Source: Branchiostoma floridae (taxonomy: Eukaryota > Chordata > Leptocardii > Amphioxiformes > Branchiostomatidae). Taken from it: a DNA stretch of 64,000 nt. Location of the stretch: positions 16,060,971 through 16,124,970 of the forward strand of contig NC_049991.1 of NCBI RefSeq assembly GCF_000003815.2, in the 5' to 3' direction. The notes beneath the pieces were generated by a model. It was given only the letters and a program-made list of their open reading frames with translations. It ran no database searches and was not told the origin of the DNA. Both the position numbers and the translations under genes were made by a program. Position 1 is the stretch's first letter, and every line of letters starts with the position of its first letter. Below are positions 10,901 to 64,000 of this stretch, piece after piece.

Positions 10901-13900
10901 AACTTGAGGACCTACCTCGTTCCTGCATGCTCTTGTCTTGAGACAGGCCAGGCATGTCCTTCATGCCCCTGTACTCCTTGGTGAGTTCCTTTAAGAAGTT
11001 GAGGTGGCTGGAGGACCTGGCCTCCCACTCCTGCTCATTGTCCCCCACTACAGGCCACGGCAGCACAAAGATGTGGGACAGGGCCCGGCACACCAACAGC
11101 TGGACCTGGGTGCACAAAGAAGGAAAATGATCTTGATCCAGTTTTAGCTCACTGAAGAGCTAGTCTTCCACTGGTTTTGACAGAGAAGGCAGATGCTATG
11201 TACAGTATCTTCAGTTTCATTGTACTGGGGAAATTCCCCTAGCCTTTTTCGACAAGCACAATGAACAGTGCACCACGGCTTAACGTCCCATCTTAAGGAC
11301 AGCAACCCTTTCATGTAGCGTGCATGTCTTGTGAGCGACACAGCCACAACTCACTGCCTCTAGCTCCAGAGGCAGGGTTGCTAACCATTGGCCTACGCAC
11401 GCTACCTTGCACAGGTGTGCAAGGTGAGATGTGACTAGTGGTAAATGGAAACTTGTAGACGCATTTATGTCATATTAGGCATTCACTGAGGCACGGCACG
11501 GGCCACGGCAGCACAAAGATGTGGGACAGGGCTCTACATACCAACAGTTGGACCTGGGTGCACAGGTGGGCAAGGTGAGATGTGACCATTTACAGATGAA
11601 AGGTTGTTATCAGATGTCACATTAAGGATTAGACAATCACTGAGCCATGCCCCTTAATTGCAATCAATCACAAGCATAAAATCATTCCTTTCTGAAAAAA
11701 AATTCCTGACTGCTGCTCTTATAACTTTGTACATTGAAACCTGAATGAAAGGTTACAAGTGATAACTTTTGGGGTACATATCATACTGCTGTAGCTTCAA
11801 CATCTTGAGATAGTACTTCAACATTAAATTCTCTCTACTATAAACAAACAAACAAACCAGCTAAATTAGATACCTCTGTTGGTAATGTTGTGATGGCTCC
11901 ATGGCTGACACTAGAGAACAGGGTCTGTACTGAGGGCAGGGCCATGAGGAAGGAGGGGCGCACCGTGGTCACCAGGGACAGGAACAGGTGTGCTGCTGTC
12001 AGGGTCACCTTCTCAGGTATCTGCCACAACAAAATCAGCACATCAGTGAAGAAAAGGAAAAAAAGAAGACAAAAATTTGAACTATTAGCCTCCAATAGCA
12101 TTTATACACCAGGTCACATATGTCCACTAGCTTGAAAAAATACATCCAAGACATTTCCAAAGCAATGTACTCCAGTATAATACATTCCTGCATATCTATA
12201 ATGTGCATACTGGGGTTGCCTCACTAGAGAACTCTCAAACGCACTGTTTTTCAAAGCGGCAGATATAGATAACCTGGCTGATGACTGATAATTGAGCTTA
12301 GGTACCATGAAACATTAAAAACATTTGTGAATACCTGATTCAACTTCAGGTAAATGATGTTCAGAGAAAAAAGTTGTAGGGTTTGGGGTATAGTTTTATG
12401 CCATACTAAATCTAGTTTCAAGCACATGTGCCTCCTTTTTGTGAATTTGTATTTCCTTCTCATTGTAATACAACTAAATTTTACCTGAGTCTTTAGCAGC
12501 GGTGTGCTGGCATCCACAATGGTAGAGACTATGGAAGCAAATTTGTCTTGCTGGTGATTGGTCTGTTTGGTCAGGTGATAGAACTGTGACAGCCAATGGG
12601 AGTAGGCATGGAGTGCTGCAAGGGACTGGGCATGTCTGCACAAGAAAATAGTCATCATCAGTATTGTAAAAATGGTATAAAGTTTTCTTTCACTAAGATC
12701 TTATAAACATAGACCTATGTATTGAAGATATAATGTCTCAATACGATTTGTATTAGTTTCAGTACTATAGCAAAATTGATGAGGCTTAATCAATGTTACA
12801 TCTTTTTGGACTGAGGGACATACATTCAAGAAAGCCAGCTAAATTTTGTCTGAGATATGATGTTTCAACTGTTTGAAATGATAGCATGGGATGTAGGCTG
12901 ACTGTAATTTTATGTTATCTATGTATGTCTTGTTTTATCTTTCTTAGAAGAGTAACAGTCACTAGCTAGACAGATGAAGAAGAGACAGAAACATTACTTA
13001 ACACTAATAGACAAAACATCAGCACAACTGCAAGTACTTACACTTCAATGAAGTCTGGACGTAGGACAGTTGGAATGGCAGTATGTACATCATATAGCTT
13101 TAACTTGGTGCTATACACAGCAGCTTGGCACAGTCTGGGGGGAAAATAAAAATTGAGACACCTCAAAATAGGATATTTCAAGACAATTCTATCCTGTATG
13201 TAAAAGTTTATTCATTTGGGATAGTGTTCTTGCCGCAAAAGCGCCACCTACATTGGCTACATATAGCAGCAAGAAGCAGAACTCCAATTAGAAGCTCTGA
13301 GGAAGATGTCTGACAGACATCGAAACGTCAGCAGGTGAGATAAACTGGTTGTGTAAAAGAAAACTCTTATGTCTTATGTTCTACCAACCTGATGTAATTA
13401 TTTTCGCGTTTATTCATTTCTATTTAAAACAAGTGAGTTTGTATCAAAGTCACCTAAAATTCATGAAAAGAGTGTTTCTTGGCATAACTGTCATAATTGG
13501 TAAACTGGCATTTCACACCAGCTTTGCACATGACGTGCAATTTCTATAAGACCAGACTAATAAGTTACCAAAGCACATCTCATTTTCATTTTATCATTAT
13601 TCTAAGAAAAAATATTGGCTACAGCTTCTATGTGTGTAATGGCAATAGAAGTTCAGAATTTTCATTCATTTATTTTTCAGTTGTGACGTAAGAGACACAT
13701 ACATTGTTGCTGCCACACTAGTCAGGGGATGGTAATAATATACAACATACAACTACAACGTAGAGACTTCCTTGCCTTTCCACCAGCGACAGTGCATCCT
13801 GTAGTCTCTGAGGGAACATCTCCCCGATGAAGTGTTCTGCCAGCCTGCCGATGGCCTGCAGCATGGAGCCCAGGTCCCGCAGGCTACAGTGGAGCCTTCT

Positions 13901-16900: not shown

Positions 16901-19900
16901 CCACACGTCCAGACATGCGTAGTAACCCTCCTGCTGAGGCTGGGGGAATAACACATCTGCTTGTCATCTTGCAATATTTCTACTTCATTTAAGAATGTGA
17001 GTTATAAGTTGGTTCAATTAGTCGGTTTTAGGTTTAAGAAACATTTTTTGAGCTTCATCTGCAGTACACACACTCACAAACATACATATACAATATCCAT
17101 GCTGTGTATTGCATTAGAGCTATTCTTTAATAAGAATACCGTCAAGTTACTTGATGGTCAAAATTAAAGGAGGGTGAGTTAGTGCAGGAGCTATACAAAC
17201 CTCACTTGTGTCATACATCCCATATTTTGAAATTGATAATGACACTCCTTAACATTAATCAGCAAAATCTTATATTGGAAATAGAGGGAATTAGTGGCCA
17301 TTATTTTATAGAGTATTTCCCACAGAATTATCTGAAGGTTGTGGTTGGTGGAAAATTTGAGACGGCCTCACCTGCTTGAAAGTGTACTTGAACAGTAAGG
17401 CTAGAAAGTCCACCACTGGAAACTGGGAGTTGGACTCAAACCTTCTTAGATGGACGCTTACAAACAGCCTCAGGAATTCTGTGAACTTGTCTATGTACCT
17501 GCAGGAGAAAGAAACATCTTCGATTTAGTTGCTTAACAGACAATATATATGGCATGTGCATTTTAACCAAATTCTGCACTAACTAAAAAATGTAAGTATG
17601 CAAAGCTCTAACACATTTTATACGGCCATTTGTGTAACTAAATCAGGAGGTGATCCCTTCAACTAGCAAAAACTTGCTGCACATCTACATCTACTCTTGT
17701 GTGTCTTTGACTTTATTCGAATTGCAACAAGGTACAATACAAGCTGGACACCAGGCAGCTAACTGGCTGATATTGTGACCACATACATATAAAAATACTC
17801 TTGTGTGTCGCAAGAAAATACACTGTTACACCACTTCGTGGACCTTCTGTCAAGACGGTAAGCCTACTGCAATTTAGAACAGGAGACTTCCAAGCAAAAT
17901 ATTTGTACTAAGAGTACACAAATGACATGTAGCTTATGATACAGTCTTGTTGCTGAAACATAACCTGTGTGCTTTGACACAAACTTACATCTCGTCTAGC
18001 TCTGCTAACTTATTCCCATAAGCTCCTGATGGCGGCTCCTTCGTCAGCCTCTGTAGCAGCTGGAACGTCTGCTGGAACATCCGGTACAAATACTCCTCAA
18101 AATCCGCAGGCACGCAGCTCTTCGACATGACTTCATTTATACAACACATGGCCAGTATGCCGAGGTTCGTGGTCTTTCCCGCGCCGTTACGGCCTCCGCC
18201 AAAGTTCGACAAGCCGCTAGGGGAGCCCTGAGAGTTTGGGTCACAGCCGAAACTGGCAAACTTGAATATGGTGATGAGTAAGGATGGGGTGATGACTGAG
18301 GAGAGGGGGATCCAGCTGAAGAGGTGGTTGAGACACTGCAGGGCCTGTGCACTCATGTGCTCACTGTCGTGGTCCAGGGATGGCAGCGGTCGAATGTTCT
18401 CCTTGTCACTCACCTGGAACATTCCACTGATGATGCTACCTGAGGGGTCATAAAATAAACAAGATCTGTGTTATGGTGACGTGTTTGTTGAAACCATCCT
18501 TTAACAGCAACAAATCTTTCGACTTGAGAAATGGCATGGCAATGGAATACAATATGCATATCAAGGTTTTTAAACCTCTTTATCAAGTGCTGGTAGAGCA
18601 CAGTGAGCTTGAGATGCGATGTTAACTTAACACCATAAGCAATTTTCTGCAAGGGTAGTCAATTGTGTAACAATGTTGTCGTAACTTGTTGTATTTTTTT
18701 CCAACCACAAAGAGTATTCATAGTAAGCTACAGTATGCAAGTGTATCTCAAAACCCAAAGAAAGAATACTACTTTACCAGAATTCATAGGTGAAGAGTTC
18801 CAGGAGCTGTTACTGGAGTCGTCATGGTTGGGGGAGGGGGGCGGTGTTGCCGTGGTTACCATGTGGCTACTCTTCTCAAGAACCTGTTCCAACAAGCCTG
18901 AGGAAAATGATACCAACCAGGCATTAGCAAGGAGAAACCTCATGATCAGCATAGTCAAATAGTCACTCTCCAAAAGATTGGCTTATCAGTCCAGAATTGG
19001 CATTTCATGTGACTAAACTAACTATCCACCTAAAGTGGAGCACAGTGACCTATCAATTATGAGTCTAGAACACTAGAGTCAGGGTTGTTATGTGGCATTA
19101 ATGCTAGACCGTCTAGCATTAATGCCACATAACAACCCTGACATATTATTAACTTGGAATGCAGCCATAGCGGCAATACCTGTTCTGATTGCCTCCTTAT
19201 ATAAGTTATATTTCCTTGCTCCGGTCTAACTCCACTCTGACAGCAGACAGATGGGTTGGAGCAGGTATATATTTCACGGCTGGATTTCAGGCTGCCAACA
19301 CACTGTTAATCACAAAGAAGCAAATAACTCTTTTGAGACCCTCCTTACCTGATAGTAAACTGAGAACAGTTGGCACTTGTTCCAGCAGCAGTCTGTGGAG
19401 CTCCTGTTTCCTAGCAACACTCAGGTCCTCCCGTGGACATGCCATCTCTTCTGATGTGGTCTGGAGCATCATCAGGCCTAGGGAGGCCGTCTCTGGCTGC
19501 TGTATCATCTACACGGTAAACATGTAAAGTGTTAAAGGTATTCGTAATCATTTGACAGTGGAACTGGAACATGTGGATATCTGTGAATAGTCTCATCAGG
19601 TTGGTACGTCACTGAATAAAGAGACTCTTTTTACACAACACTTGCTTCATTACTTACAATGTTTCAGCGACTATCTGTCACCTTCCTCCGGGCAATTCTG
19701 ACTGGTTCACATTGTACTGCAGCTATAGGTGCTACCAATTAAAGAGTGTGGTCACAAACCTAAAGTGGATAGTTTGATACCAGTGGCAATGTCCATAAGA
19801 ATGATGGACATAGAGACAAATAATGACAAAAACAATGAACGACTTAATAAGCTAAAGAGAGCTTCCAAAAACCATTTATTAAGCGAGTTGAGAAACTAGA

Positions 19901-22900
19901 CGGAATAACCTAATTCTAAAACAATATCCTGCTATTTTGTGATCTTTTTCACAAAGGTCATTCTATCCTTATCATCCTACTATAGTCCCTACCTGTAATA
20001 TATTTGTGAAGAAGTCTGGATAGAAATGCGGCCAGTCGATGCGTCCAATGTCCACGATGACTTTACAGATCTTGTTGCGTACGTAAGGAGCCACGACCTT
20101 GTGTCTCTCCATGAGGAAGTTGATGAGCGATGTTCTAATCTCCATCTTGTCATGTCCCAGGATGCCCATCCACAGCTTGTTCACTATGTTCTGTAGAAGT
20201 AAGGAGCAATATTGTCAGATTATAGATGTGTGCATATTCAGGAAGAGGACAATGTTTTATGTAAGGTCAGGATTGAGTGCTTCTGTCAAGGGAAACTTGG
20301 AAGGCAGGTCATAGTCAAAAAGGCGTCAAAAGGATGACGGCAGAGACACAACGATTTACCAATTTCCACAGTCTTCACCGGAATGACGAGAGAGTGGTAC
20401 CTGACTTGCTTTTATAGCCTAAACTCTAGTTAGAGCAAGGTGCCCTTGGCAGGTAGGAAACAACAGAGGAGCTGCCAAGTACTTAACCAGACCAGAGCTT
20501 ATATGTAAGGCTGTTGCTCAAGCTCTTATACCGTGATGGCTTCTTCAGGAAATACCCAGGAAAACTAGTGGCATGTTCAGATCATGGTTGTCACCAAGAC
20601 TTATATACATGTACATGATACTGTTGTACCTAATTATACAGCACATGTACATGTAGTCTTTAGGACACCATGTGTACTGGGGTATTGGCTAGCACTATAT
20701 CTCACAAGAATCACTGCTCTGTCAGCTGTCTAGCCAGTTCAGAATCTAAACAAACTTCATGCCCATAGCCAGGATTTTGCCTGGGGGGGTTCGTTTTACT
20801 CTTTGGCGGACCAACGAGCGCCAAAGGCGCGAGGCCAGCGCCGAAGGCGCGAGTTTCCTAGGGGGGTCCGGGGGGAAAATTTTAAAAATTGAACTCTCTG
20901 AAATAGCATTTCCTGCGTTTTTGAGAGATTTTCACACAACTGCTTCAGACATTATTTTATTCGACGAAAACGAAAGATTGGGTACATCAGTTATGAAATG
21001 GCACGTCATCACTTTTCCGAACTTTTAACTGGCTCTGATACCCCATTCAATTTGTATACGACAACCGACACGTAACTTCGAAAACTGGATGCTTTACAAC
21101 GTTCTTGTACTTGAAATGTTTTTCCTCTTAGAAATGGGTGAAACTACATCCTGCCAATCAGCAGGCTCTATCACTGTGTATACCTTTGTTGCACAACAAT
21201 TGTACAAGATAAAAAGTATGTCATCTACATTTATTAACTACAGTTCTATAGATAATCTTAACTTATGTCAGCGCTGTCATCCACAGTCCGCCAAAGAAGA
21301 CTTCCGGGCGCCTTTTACCATAGCAACAGCCAGGCTTGACTTTTTTGACTGCGGTCAGCCACTTTCATTGCCACCCCCGTTAAACTCCAGCTCCGGCCCG
21401 CACGGTTCAACTCTTGCCAGCACGGTCCAGCTCCGGCCCGCTTTGATTCCAGCTCCGGCCCGCACGTTCCAGCTCCGAGCTGGAATCAGTGCGGGCCGGA
21501 GCTGGACCGTGCGGGCAAGAGCTGGACCGTGCGGGCAAGAGCTGGACCGTGCGGGCTGGAGCTGGAGTTCAACGAGGGTGATGGCGTGAAAGTTGTCTTT
21601 CTAACGCGTGCCGCGCCCCGCCTCGCACGGGCCGGGTCTTTTACAAAACAGTAGCACGCCCCGGACTCAGGAAGAACTAACTGTAAACCGCAGGGTTCAT
21701 CTTTACTCTATGGCAATGTCTCGGAGCAATTTTTCTAGGATTCTAGACCCGTTGGAAATACAAATTAGTCCGCCCTTTAAAATTATTGTGCATTGAAAAA
21801 ACGGACCTTCGAGAAAAAAGCGGACCTTCGAGCCCGCGTGGGGGGTGCGTCCGCACCCCCCCAAACCCCCCCTGGCTACGGGCATGAACTTTTGCCTGTC
21901 TCTAGCTACACGGCTCTACCATGGCTATTGTATGCTGTAAGAGTTACATATCTAGAGAGTCCAACATACCTCCAGCACAGTGAGACAGTACATCATGACG
22001 TACTCGTTCTGTGTCTGAGACATGAAGTAGAAGCAGTGCCGCCATGCTCCGGACTGCTGCATAAAGGCACCCAGCTGCTGCTCTGTAAGGGCAGAATTAG
22101 GAAAAAAACATTCAGCACATGGTAGAACTGCTATCCTGTACATGAAGGTTTAACGTTTAGGATTTCTGAAAGGTTTTCGGAAAACCCTGTCCAGTACTGA
22201 CAGCCGAAAGTCCTGTCCAGTCTGAAAAGAGAGTCTGCATGGGGGTATAAGTTGTAAGCTATAATTCTATATCACTTGCCTGGTTGGATATAACTTTACA
22301 TGGTGACACTGTAAAGTAGCAAGTTTTATCTAACACATCATGAAGACATATATGTGCCATATGCCATTAAGGAGTAACACACATGCAACTCTTTTCACAC
22401 CAGCACTTAGCTACAGCAAGAATTTTTTACCGGAAAATTATGAGGGCAAAACTGTTAAGACAGAGTACATTCTTATTCTGCTAGATGACTTCTGTTTCTT
22501 AAAAATGTATTTGTAACCTATTTTGATTGTCAATATTGCAGAGAGAAAGACATCATCTGATACTCACAGAAAGGTCTAAGAACTTACCAATTTCCCTTTT
22601 TCTTTCATTAGAGGTGCAACCATTGAAGAATTCATTCATTAAGGTCTCCAGGGCTCGAAGAGATGCTTCGTCTGATGCCTGTAAGATATCAGATACATAG
22701 ATTTTTCTTTAATAACTATTTCAATAAGGGGCTTTAGAAAACTCTACTATACTCTTGATATATTCAACTTCATCACGACACAAGTTACTGCTGCATATTC
22801 TTTGGGCAAATAAGAAGCTACGTTATCATCTGACTCTTAGAAATACATGTAAAACGCAATTTAAGACAATCATTCAGAAGTAGCTCTTGTCGTCTTTCAG

Positions 22901-29214: not shown

Positions 29215-32200
29215 TCAAATAAAGTCAACACCTTCATACTTAAAGTCCCCTTCTATTCTCTGATCTGTGAGGAGAAATTTCCCATCCAGCCTGAACACTG
29301 AGATGAAGGTTGCTATTGCACCCCTGTCCTCCTCTGTCTTCAGGGCAACCACAACTTGGTCCTGTGTTCCTGGAATGAATTTAAAGGAGGAGAATCCCCT
29401 GATGGGGTTCAGCTTCCCTATAGTTTGGACCCTGATGTCCTGAAAGTCTGCGCTACAGGAGATGATGAGGTTAGTGGCCCTGTGCTCGTCGTCAGCCTCG
29501 TTGTAGCTGAGCTGGCTGGCTCGGCGGGGGAGGAAGAACCAGCGCTGGTGGATGTCGCTCCACACTCCTGACTCATGGATCATGTATCCTGAACAGATCA
29601 CGGGAGCAAGAAGATTGGATTGAAGCATTTGTTACAAGAGCAAAAATATTCATTCACATTATTTTCTCAGTCTTATAACCTTGGTAAGGCTGCATATCTG
29701 AAATTACAAGGCTACAGTCTGAGGTCCAGATGTTTGTATCTTGTGTTCATTCCAAAACCCACAGCTTTGCAGACCAAAGTAGACACAACAGAAACAGGTC
29801 TGAATTTCAGGACAATGAAAACATCCTTAGTACTGCTAATTTTAGCATTCTACACAATTTGTTGCAATATATGATTCACATCTTCTCAAAAGTCTGCTAA
29901 GTTCCTTTTCGGACTTTCTCATGGGTAAGTACACAATATAATATTGTTCAGTCACAGAATCAGCAAAGGAAAACACATCATTTTGAAGGTTCACATGGAA
30001 AGGAATACAAACCTGGGTAGCTACACCCTGCAGCTTCTCTCATGGCGTTGTAGTTCTCCACCCAGTCATGGTGGGCAACATCTCCATGGAAACCTATGGT
30101 TTTCACCCACTGAGGATTTGTGTTCTGTACAACACCTGGAAAAAAATCACAATAAATAGGATTGTATTGCATCTACATGTAATAAGTGTCTGGATTTATC
30201 CATCTATCTTTTATGGAAGTTAAAGCTATATCAGTATGTTCAGGTAGCTTGACAGTTTTGTTCCTAGCCAGTCAGGACAGCCTGGCACCTACTAGTAGCC
30301 AGCCTAGTGGCTGGCCCTACAGCTGCCACCCAAGAGGGGGTCATTAACCCCAGCCAGAGATTGTGTAAACACAGGCTACCTGGCACCAGGCCTCGGATGG
30401 ATTTATGGTTTATATAATAGTTAGGGTACCCTTGTGGTTTGTGTTGCGTTTCTGGGCAGCCCTCCTGGAATCGACCTTGTGCCGAATCCTCCTTGTCCAC
30501 CTGTCCAGTTGCAAAATGGAATCTTTTATGGTTCCCACTATTGGAATGACTGAAATAGAGATACACTTACCTGTAGTAGTGGTCCACTCCTTTCCTAGCC
30601 CTCCCACATACATTGTATTATCCTTCACTGCAATCCACTCGCCTTTAAAACCTGAAGGAATACCGTGGTTCAAAAGTTAATGGCTTCGAGATTTGTAAGA
30701 AACTTTCTGTAAAAATCTCAACATGATCATGAGATTTCACACCAAGGGAAAGTGACAATATTATCAAGACCAGTGCAAGAAATGAAAAATTACTTTTGCC
30801 CCCCCAAAATGTTTCCTGTACCATATGTGAGTGTGTCTGTCTGCCTGTGGACAGCGTAACTTGAGAAGTTGAGGATATATCTTTATGATATTGGACATGT
30901 GGGAAGGTCTTGGAATAATGAACGTCAGGTGCAATAATATTACTGAGGAACTTGCTTTTTCAATATCTTGTGTTCAGGAGATGCTGCACATATGGTTGTG
31001 ATGTAAGTATTGTTTGATTCTTGTGGTTTATACATTATGAAATGAGCTACTTTGTGATGACTCACCCTTATTTGTGGACCGCCCATTCCCGTCCCCCAGG
31101 ATGACCCATGGCACAGCCACAGTCTTGTCACCCGTCTGTACTATCTCATAGACAACACCTGTCCTGTCGTCCACGCTGTACAGTCTCCCGTTAAACACAG
31201 TCAGTTCAGACAGCTCCATGGACCTCCCGCCCTGAGCAAGGCTTGAGGTCATCACAGTCGGCTTGGACTCATCCCAGATCACCTCCACGCGGTCTCCTTT
31301 GATGACGAGAACTCCCTTCTTGAAGAAACTCTTCCACGTCTTCTCGTCGTTCTTGGAGGCGTGGTCGAGATCGGTGATGAGAGCGATCCGGTAGTGAGTC
31401 CCCCTGTCGGAAAACCACGGCGCGGTCATGGGGTACGTGCTGTTGTAAGCCGTCTGCTGGCCGAAACGGTCCGCAGGATAGGTGGTAGTCTTGCAGCTGG
31501 GGTAGAACAGCATGATCAGGGCGACGAAGGCGACCACAGCAACGATGACTTTCATGCGGAATCGCAGGCGGATGCCGTTGGCCTCCACCGGCCTTATCGG
31601 AGATGTCACCGTCTTGATACTGATCATTTTGTCCTGTAAAAATAATGGAGGCAACATCTTCTTATACCTTGCAACATTTTCATCCCTGCTCCGTCACTAA
31701 AGTAAGAGTAACTGGGGCAGAATCGTCAGAAAACCACAAATGTCTTCGCGAAAAATTCTCCGCGACTGCTTGACGGCCATCTTTGATTGCGTGTCATGTC
31801 GAGGGGTCGTTGGGTTATACCAATATTTGTAGGGGTGGCACTGAAACAGGTGTGTGTCTGTTTTGAGGACAAAAGGGCACACTTCAAAGTTCAAACCCTG
31901 CCAAGTTCGTCAAAACAAGATGGTTAATGATTTTGATTCGACCAAAATTTTGCCTATTTGCCTTATAACGTTATATGTATTTACGCCTACAGAGTTGGTG
32001 ATAAATGCCAACCAATATGTTACTAGTATTATCAATGAACCATTCATTCCAAGAAAGACAAATAACGTTACACTATAAAATGCCTCGTCACCTTCCTTCA
32101 GTAACTCACTAGAACACACTGGCTGATTAAAACATATGCTAGGCCATACAATAGATTCAAACGAGAGGAAACATGTCCATTGTGTTTGGTAGTTGTCCCT

Positions 32201-41226: not shown

Positions 41227-43325
41227 TCAGACTGTTACGGCGACGACTTCAACCAGCCCGTCCTCCATGTTGGTTGGAGGGACGATTCGGACGTACGTGG
41301 GCTAGAAAATAAATCAGGCACAACAAGTCAACGCTCCGAGCTTCGTCTTGTCTAAGCTACCTACCTACCTACCTACCTACCTAGTTCCTTGTCTAAGCTA
41401 CTTGCTGTTATTAAAGTTCTGGTTAATGTTCGTGGCAGGCTCGGAGTTGTTCTTTTTATACAGATGGAAGAGTCCATTCCTTTCATGACGACACGAACAT
41501 AAGCTAGAGTGTGTTGCCATCACTTCTTATAAATGTTGCAATAAGAAAATATAACTTACATGTATAGTATTTGGTCATATTGCTCAAGTATACTGGTAAA
41601 GAAGGTCAAAGAAGACACTGTACCTCCTCCACACGAGTGCACCACGCACCAGTGTTGGCGTACAGGACCTCCCGGTCTCCCTTCCCTGCGAACCGTCCCG
41701 TTGTCCACTTGTGTGTGTGGCCGAGAACCACCACGTCTTCACCGCAGGTACGGAGGAAATCGGTGTAGTCGTGTAAAGCCGCCTTGTACATACTAAAGGC
41801 TCTTTCCAATCCGTGCTATGGAAAGATAAATTTGTAGTTCAAAGAAATAAGGCTTTGAAGACTTGCATAATGTAGGCCCCAAAGAGGAGGCAATCTGACT
41901 AAAGTGATGGAGCAGTTTGTACATCATATATTGTCATACAATTGGTTGGGCATAAAAAGACCAAAACCGTTCATGGTTGCCATACTCAGTATAAGAACGT
42001 AAAGAACACGTACACGCCATCGCATTTTTATGCTATCGACAGATGCCGTTGTCATCTACAAGTTTACACGGGTTTGCTTTCAATCTTTAGTGATGACCAC
42101 CCCAAGGGCATCTAAAGGACAGAAAATTGATTCTTACCCTGTCAATGACTCTCTTGGAGAGTTGAAATCGCGAGTATTTCCTTAGGTTGAGGTACTGGTT
42201 GTTTCGGCAGAAAACGACGTCGTCGTCGGTCATTTTTCTCCCGAGACTGTGCTCCAAGATAACCCGCATTGCCCTTTCACTTCTGCTCCTTGAAGACAGC
42301 AGATGGAGCGCCTGTGAACCGATAAGGGTATAGGTTGCTACTGTTGCAGCGGACTTCTTTTCCAAGATTGGCAACGGGTCTCCATCACGTTTGCTGCTTG
42401 TTCGAGAACTGATGTATCCAATCGGCTCGCCTCCTATCAGATCCTCTTCTGCCACGCCTCCGTAGGTGTTGAATATGTCTTCGTCGTGACCGTGCTCGAA
42501 TCGAACCCGGTATAGTTGGTCGTCCACTTTGACCTCCATGACAAGGACGCCCCTGACTAGATGAAACTTGTCTCCGCGGGTCACCAAACCGAGCTTGTCT
42601 GCCATCCAGGGCATGACGTTGTGGTCGTGGTTGCCCATGACATAGTAGACGTGAACGCCCTTGTTGATCAGAAGCAGAAGGCTTTGGATGAACTTCTGAC
42701 ACGGCTCATCCTTTTGCCAGGCCTCCACCAGGTCTTGGGCTGTCATGGCGTCTCCATCGTGCGGATGGCACCACATTTCAAGCATGTCGCCGAGAAGTAC
42801 AAGCGAGTGAAGGTTTCCATCTTTCGCAAAGCCCTCCATGGTTTTCAAAAGCCTGTCGAATGTCGCTTGCGAGAATTTTGCTCCGACAAGATGGCAGTCG
42901 CTCAAAGCTACAACCTGCCTCTTTGGGCTGTCATTGACATCCATGGGGACAACTACGACTTCTTCTTCTTTGTTCCCTACTGGACGGTCATAGTCGGAAT
43001 TCTGCGGATTCTCTCGGCTCCAGACGAGTTGTTTATCTGCTGGTTTCGGGGTGTAACTTTCTAGATACTGACGAATCTTATTCATGTACACCTTCGCCTT
43101 TAGTTTGTCCATTACTCCGGGAGAGTCAACGGAGGGTTCCGGATCGTAAGGTGCAAAATCAGGGTGGGTAATTTCGACAAGATCGGTAAGGTCCTTCTGC
43201 TCTATGTCGTCTAAAGACTCGACCTGTTCCTCTGGGCGCAGCTCGCTGTAGTCAAGTAACAGGTCCACCAGTGCCGCAGCTACTTTGGGATCGACCTGGT
43301 GGCTCGGAGAACCGGGCTCGACCAC
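41227..43325 (-). CDS. Calcineurin-like metallophosphoesterase, LpxH/UDP-diacylglucosamine hydrolase-like (N-terminus missing)
   Basis: Binuclear-metal phosphoesterase; substrate unknown. Exons in transcript order: 42138-43325, 41624-41815, 41227-41301 (stop TGA), giving 484 codons with matching phases and GT-AG sites. All metallophosphoesterase motifs are present in order: SDCHLVG (about 142-148), LLGDMLEMW (178-185), GNHDHN (231-236), EHGHDED (277-283) and VVLGHTHKW (about 426-433). GDMLEMW resembles the GDxFDxW block of bacterial LpxH. About 130 residues of acidic sequence precede the first motif. The long exon begins at an acceptor-like atag before GTG at 43325; no in-frame ATG precedes it, so at least one 5' exon is missing. 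No mammalian ortholog comes to mind. Introns argue against bacterial contamination; an old transfer remains possible. Confidence 0.86.
41366..41389. repeat. CTAC microsatellite
   Basis: Six tandem CTAC tetranucleotides, between the last exon and the penultimate exon of the phosphoesterase gene. Confidence 0.8.
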
Positions 43326-59000: not shown

Positions 59001-62000
59001 CAGATGATAATATGAGTAGACATTGTAATCCACATGTAAAATCAGTGTAAGTCAGAAAAGCTCCTAGAGGCTGTGCTTTATTAGAATGGCCATACTCCTG
59101 ATCTCATTTACACAGAAACCAGCGTAACCAGCAGTAGTAAGCAGGCATTCTTCCATCTCTGGAGTAAAACCAGCCCTTCTACAAATTTAGGGCGTTCTAA
59201 TTATAGGATGGAAATCACTGCTCGAATCTAATAAAGATGAAGAGGGCTGATGACGAAAATGCTAAGGTTTTGCTTTTTGGTGACAGGTAGCTTTTTATGT
59301 CAAGGCAAAGTTTTTTTGAGTCCCCTAGATATAGCAGCTTTCATGTCCTTGTGATACATATTACACGTAAAGAGTTTTGCACTGAACGTCTTGTGTGTGT
59401 ATTGTTTCAGGATTACCAGACCCCTTTGCCAAGATAAGTGTGGATGGGTCGGGCCAGTGCCACTCCACAGACACATGTAAGAACACACTGGACCCCAAGT
59501 GGAATCAACACTACGACTTGTAAGTACTGCAAGTTAGTCTAAAATGTACCAACATTTGCACCATCTTTTGGTCATTGTTATTTCATGTCTTTGGAGGGAA
59601 TGTTTAATCTTTGGAGAAAGCCTCAGGTGTCAAACCCCTGCCTGCTTAAGAACCCAACACACTTCTGGTAAAGTAGGGGACCCCAGCCTTGGTGTCATCC
59701 TATTTAGTTTTCATTGGCTCTCGCTCTCTCTGCTATGCGGCAGTTGGTAAGTGGAGAGTATATTGGAAGTATAGGAGAGTATGTAAAACTAACAAGGATG
59801 GCACTTTGCTTGGTCAAATTCTTGAGGACATTACAGGCTCATGTTTTCTTCTACGTCACTCAAAACTTGTTGATATGGTTCATGAATATCACGATATATA
59901 TTAAGGTAAGCTAAAGGCTTTGATATAGGATAATATTGTGCTATCGTTTCCTGACTCTGGCTTCCAGTTGATTTGTTTCCCCACTTTTATCCTTACTTTC
60001 AATACTGTATGTTTCTCCTCAGGTTTATTGGCAAGAATGACTCCATCACCATCAGTATCTGGAACCATAAAAAGGTGCACAAGAAGCAGGGTGCTGGCTT
60101 CCTGGGGTGTGTCCGCATCATGGCTAACGCTATTGCTAGGTTAAAGGACACAGGGTGTAAGTACTGTTTTACCACTACACACAATCATATGGGCCAAAAA
60201 GCAGTTACTCAAGCAACTGGATATGATTTTGGAAACAGTCAGACGTTTCAAACAGCGATCCAGTGTCTTTCATCAGTGACACTGAAAGACACTGGATAGA
60301 TGTCTGAAATTTCTGACCGTTTCCAGAATCGTATCCAGTTGTTTGAGTAACTGCTTTTTGGCGAATCTCATTACCTGGATGTCTAACCTTCATCGACATA
60401 CAGAATCATATGCATGCATCCTTCTGGGTAGGGAAGGTTTTGAGGCTTGCTGAAAAGCAAATTACCTTCTTGGACGTGACTGGAAACATTTTTGAAAAGT
60501 CAATGGTAGAACACCTAATAGCAATTACTCAAGCAACTGGATATGATTTTGGAAACGGTCAGATGATTCAGGTAGAATCCAATACCCTTCGCCAGCGTAT
60601 CTAATTACCTGGATATCTAACCTTCATCGACATACAGTGGTAGAACAATTTTATTTCTAAAAGAATGCTTTTATGACAGTTTTGCAACTTGTCGTGATAG
60701 AATATGTCTGCTTATTTATTACCAAATATATTACCGCTGTAAATATTACCAAAATCTACATGAATCAACAGGTACACATATGGGAGATACTTTCAGCTAT
60801 AGACAGGAACATTATAAAGCATTGTGACCATCTGGAATGACAAGCCAGAATTCTGCTGTTACCCAGCTGTTGTGCCATCAGTGGGTGCCATTTTCAGTCT
60901 CACTAGTCAAGGTCAAACTATCCATTCCTATTGTTTATGTCAGTTGGAAACCCCAGAAAATCAATAAATGCAATGCTCAGGGACTCGGCTTAGTGTACAC
61001 TCGTAATAACAGCATGTTGAGCGTCCAATACATGTATTTGCACAGGAAGAAAGTCTGTGATGGTTTCAGTTGTCATGTGACAACAGGCCAGTGTTCCAGT
61101 TTAAATGTCCCGTGCTTAAATCACTTGAGAACTTGTCAGTTCTAAACAATGGAAGCCTTGATTGGTAGAGGATAACTTGCTGTGAGTGTGGGTGAAGAGA
61201 GGGAAGCTTTTGGCATGCTGTATCAGGTCATGGCTCTTTCTCTCACCAGTGACTTTGTCTTTGGCTGTATTTTTGGAAAGTTTACAGATAACATGATGCA
61301 AGCCTTTTCTAACCATAAATTGTTGGATGCTGTAATGAAAAATGATTTAAGGAAAGTATCCTATCTTAGAACTTTCTCTTTATAAAGTTTGTTCCAACAC
61401 AAGCACATAGATGTCCTTGGTCACATATACCACAGGGATAAAGATGCTAAAGGTGAAGGGATACATGGGTGGATCCCCAAAGTGAGTCTTACGATACAAC
61501 TTCCTAAGGGACAGAGGTGATTCCCAGTCTCCAGTTGGGGACTGCAGACTGGACAAATGAAATAATCCACACCCCGTGTCCCCAGTGGGGCACAATAATA
61601 AGTTGATAATATGATCAGAAATCATGACAGATGGTTACCAAGTGCTGATGTTGCCCCAGGCAGAATGGGTCTGTGGGAGCAGCCACCTGGTGTACAGTAA
61701 CATGAGAGTCCCAGGTTACAACTTCCCACATCCAGGTTATCAGCAATTAACTTAGAGGGCCTCAACATGCCGAATTATGGCATTCAGTCGGACTGAACTT
61801 ATCCTGAGTCTTTTCAATAACCATTCAAAAATTTACCCAAAAGCTGTTACTTAAGCAACTGGATATGATTTTGGAAATTGGCGTATCTTTTTACCTGGAT
61901 GTCTAACCTTTATTGGCATTCAAAAATTGTCACCAGTTTTGTTTTTGAATGTCAATTGTGATTTGGAAACTTTTCTAGACATAGATAAAACTTAAAAACT

Positions 62001-62927
62001 TGTACAGCTGTGATGTATAAAGTGTTAATTTCATGTACATCATGCAGTTTGAAGTTTGAATGGAGGAAAATATTCTAAATAAATGTTTCTTTTCCCACAG
62101 ATCAGAGACTAGACTTATGTAAAAAGAATCCTGACGACAACGACAATATCAGGGGCCAAGTAGTAGGTGAGTCAATTGCTACATAAGGCATACCTGAATA
62201 TACTGAAAAGATAGTGATGATATAGTAAAATCAATTGTATTTCTGGAAGTGGTTTTCAAGTGTATTGATAGAACTTATAGAAGTAAGTGATAATGTTTTG
62301 TCATAAAATTAACTTTCACATGTGGTATTAAATAATTTCTAGTATTATGTTGGGATCTACAAGAAGGTTTAATGATTGTTGTAATATTTTGATAGTTTGT
62401 TGTAATGTTATGATGTTGATAGTTTGTTTTGCACTTGTGTATTTACTAATACATTGGTGTTTGTCACATTTGTGCCTCCAGGAATGCTGAAACCACAGTC
62501 TTTGATTTACAGTGTGTATATATTTGTCCAAGTGCTAAGAGTAAGAGAGGATGTGTGCAAGTGCTACAGCACTTCTGTCCCTCTAAGTTTGAAGCCAATG
62601 TAGACCTACCTGTACCTGTACACAGTCAGGTGTGACGAGTTGTTGACCCTATGAAATGTGTTACCATCCACAGTGAGTATAATGGCCCGAGATGGTTCGG
62701 GGTTGGGGGACAGAAGTGCAGTAGTGGACCACACAGGGATGCTTTCCACTAGGTCGGTATTCAAAAGAGACAGTTAATTAAAACACATGCACAACTAGCG
62801 GTACTTTTTCCACTGCTCCAGTGAGTCTTATGTCGCGAGACAGAGGGATAGGGGATAGAAGTGCGGTTGTTGACCACAGAGGGATCCCAACTGCCGTGTG
62901 TTTAGATGCCAACGAGCTTCCAGAGGG
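47092..62927 (+). CDS. SMURF: SMURF-type HECT E3 ubiquitin ligase, C2-domain part (first six coding exons)
   Basis: Single homolog of vertebrate SMURF1/SMURF2, E3 ligases that ubiquitinate SMADs, RhoA and TGF-beta receptors. Exons: 47092-47143, 58320-58358, 59411-59519, 60023-60156, 62101-62166 and 62822-62927; GT-AG sites and phases all join. The product starts MSRPGGPRNGAMKIRLTV, aligning with the human start, and reads through the C2 domain: LCARNVSKKDFFRLPDPFAK, DGSGQCHSTDTCKNTLDPKW, NQHYDLFIGKNDS, NHKKVHKKQGAGFLGCVR, LKDTGYQRLDLCKKNP, RDRGIGDRSAVVDHRG. It ends LDANELPEG at a gtaagt donor, just before where SMURF2 has its first WW domain. The WW and HECT exons lie beyond the window. Intron 1 is 11.2 kb. 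A second version of the last exon lies at 62674-62752. Confidence 0.95.
47640..48270. repeat. Degenerate ~125-bp tandem array in SMURF intron 1
   Basis: The motif GAATGGACTCTTCCAG or a variant recurs at about 47640, 47873, 47992, 48127 and 48251, with TTAGACCAGTCCAAAAATAC and CACTGAAAGACTTTGAC between. Spacing of 119-135 bp (or twice that) suggests about six units. No ORF. Confidence 0.75.
48395..48424. repeat. 30-bp palindrome with AAGGTCA half-sites
   Basis: GGGTCAACGACCTTAAGGTC followed by ATTGACCCC is an imperfect palindrome. It contains AAGGTCA/TGACCTT-type nuclear-receptor half-sites; their use is not shown. It may be the left end of the repeat element that follows. Confidence 0.45.
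48530..49162. repeat. Four ~162-bp modules ending in a GAAA tract and hairpin
   Basis: ACCAAATTTCAGGTCATTCG or a variant recurs at about 48532, 48693, 48858 and 49020 (steps of 161, 165 and 162 bp). The last is followed by GAAAGAAAGAAAGAAA (49082-49110) and the palindrome ATATTTCACCATACC...GGTATGGCTGAAATAT (49127-49158). This architecture looks like a non-autonomous element with a defined 3' end. Confidence 0.7.
52438..52788. mobile_element. CAGGGCT-type MITE (351 bp) in SMURF intron 1
   Basis: Begins CAGGGCTTGAAATTAA and ends TTTGGAGCCCTG, an imperfect inverted pair; GGTGCACTGG and TGCACCAAGGTGCA motifs pair inward. CAGGG termini are typical of hAT MITEs, but an intact 8-bp target duplication is not visible, so it is probably old. 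Confidence 0.65.
60196..60359. repeat. Inverted-repeat element next to SMURF exon 4
   Basis: AAAAAGCAGTTACTCAAGCA to about 60242 is repeated in inverted orientation at 60313-60359. An inner pair CAGTGTCTTTC/GAAAGACACTG forms the loop. It starts 40 bp past the exon 4 donor. Partial copies lie at about 60520-60645 and 61846-61925, always followed by ACCTGGATGTCTAACCTT, so it is a multicopy family. Confidence 0.75.
62674..62752 (+). other. Alternative SMURF exon (tandem duplicate of the 62822 exon)
   Basis: Acceptor ccacag precedes 62674; in the required phase it reads VSIMARDGSGLGDRSAVVDH, then TGMLST, ending at a weaker gtcggt donor in the same phase as the 62822-62927 exon. The core GDRSAVVDH is identical in protein, but four of its codons (Gly-Asp to Val) differ only at synonymous sites. 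Only 69 nt separate the two exons. Joining both shifts the frame and reaches a stop within 13 codons, so use should be exclusive. Retaining the short intron gives a stop after eight more codons and a C2-only protein of about 170 aa. Could also be a decaying duplicate. Confidence 0.6.
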
Positions 62928-64000
62928 GTAAGTTGTGCTGTCGTGTGGTTGCACTCATATGAAGCTGTCCGAGATGAAAGTGTGCGGCATAAAACATCAC
63001 ATGTCTGAGCACTTCTGTTGCCAGTTGTGTCATCGGACACATTAGTACTGTGAGCTGTTGTGTTCTGTCCTATGTATATTTATCCCCGAAAATAATTTCA
63101 TCAGGTTGGTAGATCATAGGATATAGGAGTTTTCTTTTACACAACCTAAGCTAAGGTGAGATTAACTGGTAAAAGAAAACTCCTATATCCTATATATATT
63201 TATGTGTATATACATATATGTAACCCAATTGTCTTGAGATGAAATAAATAGATACGTAGATGAAATACATGGTTAAAAAGATCATTAAAATCTGGTACAT
63301 AATACTAAAAAGTTCTGAGTCTTATAATAATTACTAAGCACAGATTTCTATTGGTACACTTTCCCTCTGAAATTTTCTCTCTGGTACGGAACTCTCTCTA
63401 TAAAACAGCCTGTATTTGATTTTTCTGTAAAGATTTTGATGTTGGAATTTCTAAAAGACATTCTTCTGTGTATTTAAAGTCTTGCTCCACGACAACTAAG
63501 TTATTGGTCAACATAAAATCACAGCAGAGAAAGGAGAGTATATGTGCCAGACATGTATTGTTGTAATTATCAAAGAGACAGCTTTCACTGGTCTGGAGTG
63601 AATTGATTCCCCTGAGTCATTAGTCCTGTTACCAGATAAGATTGGGAAATTTGATATGGAGAAGTTGAATCAGAGACAAATTGGATTCTCTGGGGATGAT
63701 CATTTCCACTGTGTATACACGGTGATGTAATAATGGTTTGTAATGGGGCTAGAGGCAGTACGTTTAGCTATTAGACACCAGGAACATATGTACAGCATAT
63801 GTAGGTGATAAATGACAGATTTTGGCAGTCCCACCGTCACCATACATGTGATTTTCAATAAGAAGACTAGTTTAATCTCAAAATGTATGGAAATGTTTCA
63901 CATGTAAATCCAATCCTACTCCCCCAAAGTGAAACTCAGTGAAAGAGATTGGTCGTAAGTTAAATCTTTTTATTTGACCCTACAGCATAACCTAAGGTCC
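62928..64000 (+). other. SMURF intron after exon 6, no exon seen
   Basis: No WW-domain signature was recognised before the window edge. Contains an inverted-repeat copy at 63097-63195. Confidence 0.5.
63118..63191. repeat. Inverted pair of the GTAAAAGAAAACTC repeat family
   Basis: AGGATATAGGAGTTTTCTTT (63118) and its inverse at 63170-63191 are 22-bp perfect arms with a 30-bp loop. Flanking CATCAGGTTGGTAGATC and AGGTGAGATTAACTGG match the dispersed repeat at 13318-13395, so two opposite fragments of one family are fused here. Confidence 0.7.

Follow-up and report, generated by a model that had tools for sequence, protein, structure and literature searches.

The question raised by this locus is whether two similar, closely spaced exons of a lancelet gene are alternatives of which each transcript takes exactly one, and whether the upstream copy is used at all. 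The exons, here called A and B, lie close to the end of a stretch of 64,000 nt of Branchiostoma floridae DNA (the window), for which a preliminary description had proposed mutually exclusive splicing. Positions are those of the window, and the numbering is continued into the DNA downstream of it.

The Exon Pair Lies in a SMURF Gene

When joined, the exons gave matches to the C2 domain of SMURF2 (2jqz, E 2.2e-37), to that of SMURF1 (3pyc, E 3.8e-36) and to Pfam C2. SMURF is an E3 ligase of the C2-WW-HECT class, and in this gene the SMURF-type C2 domain is followed by WW domains, the first of which (WW1) is above the Pfam WW cut-off. The window itself holds no WW1 exon, which was located in DNA fetched downstream. 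The WW2 and WW3 exons were assigned by sequence motif, read by eye in the downstream DNA, and HECT-like candidate exons come from a reading of frames by eye in the same DNA; exon borders there were set by eye, guided by GT-AG, phase and an unbroken protein sequence (Table 1). From these matches we identify the gene that carries exons A and B as SMURF. A DNA search with 62600-63000 against the assembly (513,431,437 bases, 431 contigs), which scored the best candidates, gave one match, the pair's own locus.

Table 1. Exons of the SMURF gene and elements around the exon pair (a slash marks the exon border).
Feature	Position	Strand	Length	Borders and remarks
C2-domain exon	59411..59519	+		TTTCAG/G and CTT/GTAAGT; Pfam C2
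C2-domain exon	60023..60156	+		match to SMURF2 C2 2jqz
C2-domain exon immediately 5' of the pair	62101..62166	+		donor TAG/GTGAGT
Intron segment, predicted duplex across nearly all of exon A	62530..62616	+		core 62564-62581 with 62707-62724
Exon copy A	62674..62752	+	79 nt	CACAG/TGAGT ... ACTAG/GTCGGT; without ELPEG tail
Intron between A and B	62753..62821	+	69 nt	
Exon copy B	62822..62927	+	106 nt	TCCAG/TGAGT ... GAGGG/GTAAGT; strong sites; ends ELPEG
WW1 exon	65072-65155		84 nt	CCCCACAG/TTGGGAAG ... CAGAG/GTCAGG; beyond window
Linker exon L1	65579-65856			beyond window, 3' of WW1 exon
WW2 exon	66256-66340			beyond window, after L1
WW3 exon	68009-68167			beyond window, after WW2

The introns of the gene also contain a fold-back, transposon-like sequence and related fragments (60183-60372, 60514-60639 and 61836-61925), with fold-back arms of 90 nt that are 86% complementary. 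A short repeat with perfect inverted arms of 25 nt lies just 3' of exon B (63087-63193) and has relatives at 13333-13406 and 19586-19639.

Exons A and B Are Homologous Copies

The limits, phases and shared core of the two exons and the length of the intron between them had been given correctly to the base in the preliminary description. In each copy a single base of the preceding exon, which ends at 62166, enters the first codon and two bases are left over at the 3' end, so that entry and exit phases are equal. Exon A reads VSIMARDGSGLGDRSAVVDHTGMLST followed by AG and exon B reads VSLMSRDRGIGDRSAVVDHRGIPTAVCLDANELPE followed by GG. Their core, GDRSAVVDH, is identical and is encoded with four synonymous differences (GAC/GAT, GCA/GCG, GTA/GTT, GTG/GTT). 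When 62167-63600 was searched against the window, the two copies aligned over 70 nt of DNA, 62671-62740 against 62819-62885, with a match of 75.7% (E = 2.9e-7). The peptide matches between A and B had E values of 1.1e-6 and 1.8e-6, the next best match in the window 0.18. In the alignment A has one codon more than B, a change of length that is in frame. The homology detected by BLAST ends near 62740, and the last three codons of A and its donor therefore have no clear counterpart in B. A derivation of this 3' end from the 3' end of the WW1 exon was rejected, since an equally good alignment was obtained with random pieces in 78% of cases. Beyond the 18-nt stem described below, the window contains no third or antisense copy of the exon.

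Criteria for tandem-duplicated mutually exclusive exons include similar length, with a difference of up to 20 amino acids, the same splice-site type and the same frame (PMC3228551). Exons A and B comprise 26 and 35 whole codons, both are of the GT-AG type, they share the frame, and they are homologous at the DNA as well as the peptide level. Judged by these features, the pair is a genuine case of tandem exon duplication, well formed and of an already known kind.

Exactly One Copy Keeps the Reading Frame

We translated seven exon combinations. Those with one copy, B+WW1+L1, A+WW1+L1, A+L1 and B+L1, are open through the exons named, and stops are met in A+B+WW1, in WW1+L1 without A or B, and in L1 alone. 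Inclusion of both copies adds 12 residues after A before a premature stop, as had been expected. On translation, then, the frame is kept by exactly one copy and is shifted by none or two, and together with the equal phases this supports the logic of mutual exclusion that had been proposed. Such a frame rule is common: one survey, with 629 human clusters counted in a figure legend, reports it for 377 (60%) and found joining reads for no more than 83 of these 377 (PMC5740500).

We consider it just about probable that A and B are mutually exclusive alternative exons that encode the C-terminal end of C2 together with the linker before WW1, with B as the default and A as a regulated exon of low use. 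The main rival reading of A is that of a dying copy, a decaying duplicate which is rarely or never spliced and whose frame is open by chance and past constraint. We regard it as a distinct possibility, and the evidence from codons and splice sites bears on both.

Exon A Shows Signs of Past Coding Constraint

Over 21 aligned codons A and B differ at 15 bases, of which 4 fall on first, 2 on second and 9 on third codon positions. This corresponds to about 8.5 synonymous and 6.5 other changes (pS 0.56, pN 0.14), and the rate of difference at synonymous sites is four times that at the remaining sites. Selection on both copies had been read from the four synonymous sites of the core; divergence is indeed concentrated at synonymous sites, but the argument is weaker than claimed because constraint on B alone makes part of the pattern. 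A null model in which all changes are random (P 0.0024) was set aside as too generous. Since B's own constraint adds synonymous changes, we relied on simulations that imposed selection on B only and let A evolve neutrally, both mutating equally, in seven settings that included another gap placement and 24 codons. Amino-acid differences as few as those observed had a probability of 0.014-0.047 in these simulations, and 0.012-0.036 jointly with the lack of a stop; with both copies constrained the value was 0.76. In this test of 21-24 codons, the pattern gives modest support to the view that A was coding after the duplication, and its present use is a separate question. The open frame itself is compatible with decay, as a short frame often stays open (a fraction of 0.66-0.78 in the seven neutral-A simulations). 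Against decay stand the joint probability just given, amino-acid changes being too few for the synonymous divergence, and the in-frame change of one codon.

Splice Sites and Intron Geometry

Scored with primate frequencies, the acceptor of A (−0.89) and its donor (0.84) are the weakest of the nine placed exons, the next weakest values being 3.17 and 1.64; the sites of B score 6.03 and 5.70. The weakness that had been noted for the gtcggt donor was thus confirmed. Among all + strand AGs of the window 19.5% reach the score of A's acceptor, and among all + strand GTs 6.7% reach that of its donor. Both weak sites speak for decay, as do the tail and donor that lack a clear counterpart in B. On the other side, of 20000 random starts 7.4% led to an equally strong donor in the correct phase ahead of any stop in frame. 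The WW1 exon has a donor (GTCAGG, score 3.31) with C at +3 like the GTCGGT of A, the only two among the nine placed exons, and this WW1 donor is fixed by the protein sequence that flanks it, which also counts against simple decay of A.

The preliminary description had placed the intron between the copies near or below the length needed for normal spliceosome assembly, and at 69 nt it indeed appears too small for ordinary spacing of donor and branch point; the other introns in the placed part of the gene have at least 399 nt. The ten best-scoring branch-point candidates in it were listed with a yUnAy matrix. Nine of these predicted branch points are 11-42 nt from the donor of A, the top one being the A at 62777 (25 nt), and the tenth is at 60 nt but only 9 nt from the acceptor. 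The steric limit is reported to be about 50 nt in a study on OGDH (PMC7969005). The frame and the predicted distances below 50 nt would thus both act against inclusion of two copies, and the donor of A and the branch point of B's acceptor are predicted to be too close for normal joint use. In human clusters a predicted distance under 50 nt was reported for 57 (9%) (PMC5740500).

Exons 4a and 4b of OGDH offer the closest likeness in these respects: they are mutually exclusive through distant branch points, are duplicated, flank an intron of restricted size, have a combined length that is not a multiple of three, and have branch points near the upstream donor, in human 25-41 nt from that of exon 4a (PMC7969005). 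Branch points and isoforms were mapped experimentally there, whereas the branch points of lancelet SMURF are predicted, and unlike the OGDH pair the lancelet copy A is without the 3' tail of B.

The same geometry bears on a further reading, in which A would be a regulatory 'poison' exon whose inclusion together with B sends the message to decay and lowers the SMURF level, the peptide of A being unimportant. Although the stop 12 residues after A would suit such a role, the small size of the 69-nt intron and its predicted branch points close to the donor of A disfavour joining of A to B, and the peptide of A carries a purifying pattern, so that we regard this as quite unlikely.

A Predicted Hairpin Covers Exon A

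A segment of the upstream intron is predicted to pair with exon A (Table 1). In the 18-nt core stem 17 of 18 positions are Watson-Crick pairs, with one A-A mismatch. The duplex of 62530-62616 with exon A has −62.5 kcal/mol compared to a shuffle mean of −46.4, and none of 300 shuffles was as good. For the ungapped 18-mer match this holds for 0 of 1000 shuffles, or 41 of 1000 when G-U pairs are allowed. Synonymous recodings of A were as good in 8 of 2000 cases for the whole duplex and 7 of 2000 for the core, those of B in 574 of 2000 for 62530-62616 and 149 of 2000 for the core; as B recodings pair as well so often, the strong pairing belongs to A. The local fold of 62540-62752 has a z of −2.13 (5 of 200 shuffles as good), and the larger fold of 62540-63060 was no better than shuffles (z −0.41, 33 of 100 as good). 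As a further control we took 400 random places in the window and 30 kb downstream and dropped six that met missing bases. Among the other 394, pairing as good was found at 7 and a match of at least 17 of 18 at 3. Inverted-repeat pairs of the strength of the stem number 22 in the 64 kb, at about ten sites, and at least two of these (near 60192-60563 and 63115-63194) lie in sequence repeated elsewhere in the window. We treat the modelled hairpin as a lead, with a probability of about 0.01-0.02 by the fairest control for a structure that was found after the fact.

In the Dscam type of regulation one docking site is complementary to the selector of every alternative exon (PMC6071210). In lancelet SMURF strong pairing is with A only. 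Dscam-like docking for both copies was rejected, as the pairing of 62530-62616 with B is ordinary by the recodings above and that of the whole upstream intron with B was equalled by 23 of 300 shuffles. The upstream site does have short ungapped matches to B that are partly above shuffles (15-mer 6 of 1000, 18-mer 3 of 1000), as expected from the homology between the cores of B and A. The hairpin, if real, would bury exon A, and it is therefore more likely to act as a repressor than as a docking site in the Dscam sense. For Dscam exons 17.1/17.2, steric hindrance is combined with RNA structure (as cited in PMC7969005). The two kinds of element may likewise act together in lancelet SMURF, with the difference that the paired element here is the exon body itself and that B has no comparable pairing.

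Three + strand copies of the 11-mer AGCACTTCTGT are present in the window (53685, 62568 and 63008). Two of them flank the exon pair, one on each side, and ten bases of the 11-mer are complementary to the core of exon A. The downstream element at 63008 was rejected as a pairing partner, since the downstream intron had no ungapped match to either copy that exceeded shuffles; downstream duplex energies were equalled by 7 of 300 (A) and 14 of 300 (B) shuffles, with no single clear stem. For pairing of the 69-nt intron, 12 of 300 shuffles were as good with B and 229 of 300 with A.

That the duplex is mainly an ADAR RNA-editing substrate or the remnant of a small inverted duplication, and not a splicing switch, would fit an 18-nt stem with one A-A mismatch and the equally strong inverted repeats elsewhere in the 64 kb, but we think it very unlikely given that the pairing singles out A and is favoured by A's choice of synonymous codons, a feature that a recent inverted copy would give likewise.

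If A and B are mutually exclusive exons, the strong acceptor and donor of B would win by default, with A buried and weak. The hairpin and the weak sites would hold A off until some factor opens it. Once its sites are used, A would be joined to WW1 or beyond and B would be skipped, since the donor of A hardly pairs with the acceptor of B, whose predicted branch point is too near. Splicing of A to B would be blocked by steric exclusion, and leftover frame-shifted messages would presumably be removed by nonsense-mediated decay.

Consequences for WW1

The Leu-Pro at the start of a WW domain packs on the end of the domain. Exon B supplies the LPEG start of WW1, which is replaced in A, where the junction reads GMLSTS-WEERR. 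B+WW1 matches positions 1-31 of Pfam WW with 40.8 bits and A+WW1 positions 3-31 with 33.3 bits; both exceed the cut-off (26.9), so that WW1 is retained with A and loses its Leu-Pro start. The choice of B would thus give a WW1 starting with LPEG, and that of A a WW1 without the Leu-Pro clasp.

SMURF1 has the order C2-linker-WW2, without WW1. The tail assigned to B in the preliminary description (ANELPEG before WW1) was found as described, B ending in ELPEG and joining the WW1 exon in frame. A, which had been likened to SMURF1 for want of this tail, does not by itself fit that comparison: the WW1 exon lies downstream in frame with both copies. The further suggestion that one gene yields both linker types survives in part, as the WW1 exon starts and ends in the same phase and can be skipped, but a second event beyond the choice of A is needed. 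Skipping of the phase-neutral WW1 exon from A would give a C2-linker-WW2 layout like that of SMURF1. The joined A and linker read GMLST-RPAIEYTPSS and gave no Pfam match up to E 10, and from this order a SMURF1-like product is possible. The WW1 exon, phase-neutral and with C at +3 of its donor, may itself be alternatively spliced.

In vertebrate SMURF1 and SMURF2 the difference also concerns the stretch from C2 to WW2; there it is divided between two genes, whereas one gene copy was seen in the lancelet, and unlike SMURF1 the lancelet exon A alone keeps WW1. The two mammalian SMURFs contain 2-3 WW domains, and splice isoforms of SMURF1 exist (PMC6082930). That one unduplicated chordate SMURF gene makes a SMURF2-like form (B+WW1) and a SMURF1-like form (A, with WW1 disarmed or skipped), switched by a hairpin burying exon A and by steric exclusion, seems unlikely to us as a whole. 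If true, the vertebrate gene pair would have divided up an alternative that had already existed at the level of splicing.

If A is used, a ubiquitin ligase of the TGF-beta/BMP pathway would tune its first WW domain by exon choice, by splicing before gene duplication, in an animal that branches off before the vertebrate gene duplications. The layout of short intron, predicted branch points and frame rule would then add a non-vertebrate steric example. As a dying copy, A would be an exon fossil of the ordinary kind. Titles and abstract openings of the literature matches listed contained no report of the SMURF exon pair.

Further Genes in the Window

On the − strand, an apyrase-family gene, probably a calcium-activated nucleotidase, lies at 29215-31690 (two frames, Pfam Apyrase, E 2e-54 and 2e-29). 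Two frames at 17985-20214 (−) match Xpo1-type exportin with E values of 1.4e-5 and 4.3e-4; the second match does not reach the curated cut-off. At 42087-43325 (−), a frame of 412 codons contains a calcineurin-like phosphoesterase domain (Pfam, E 4e-8).
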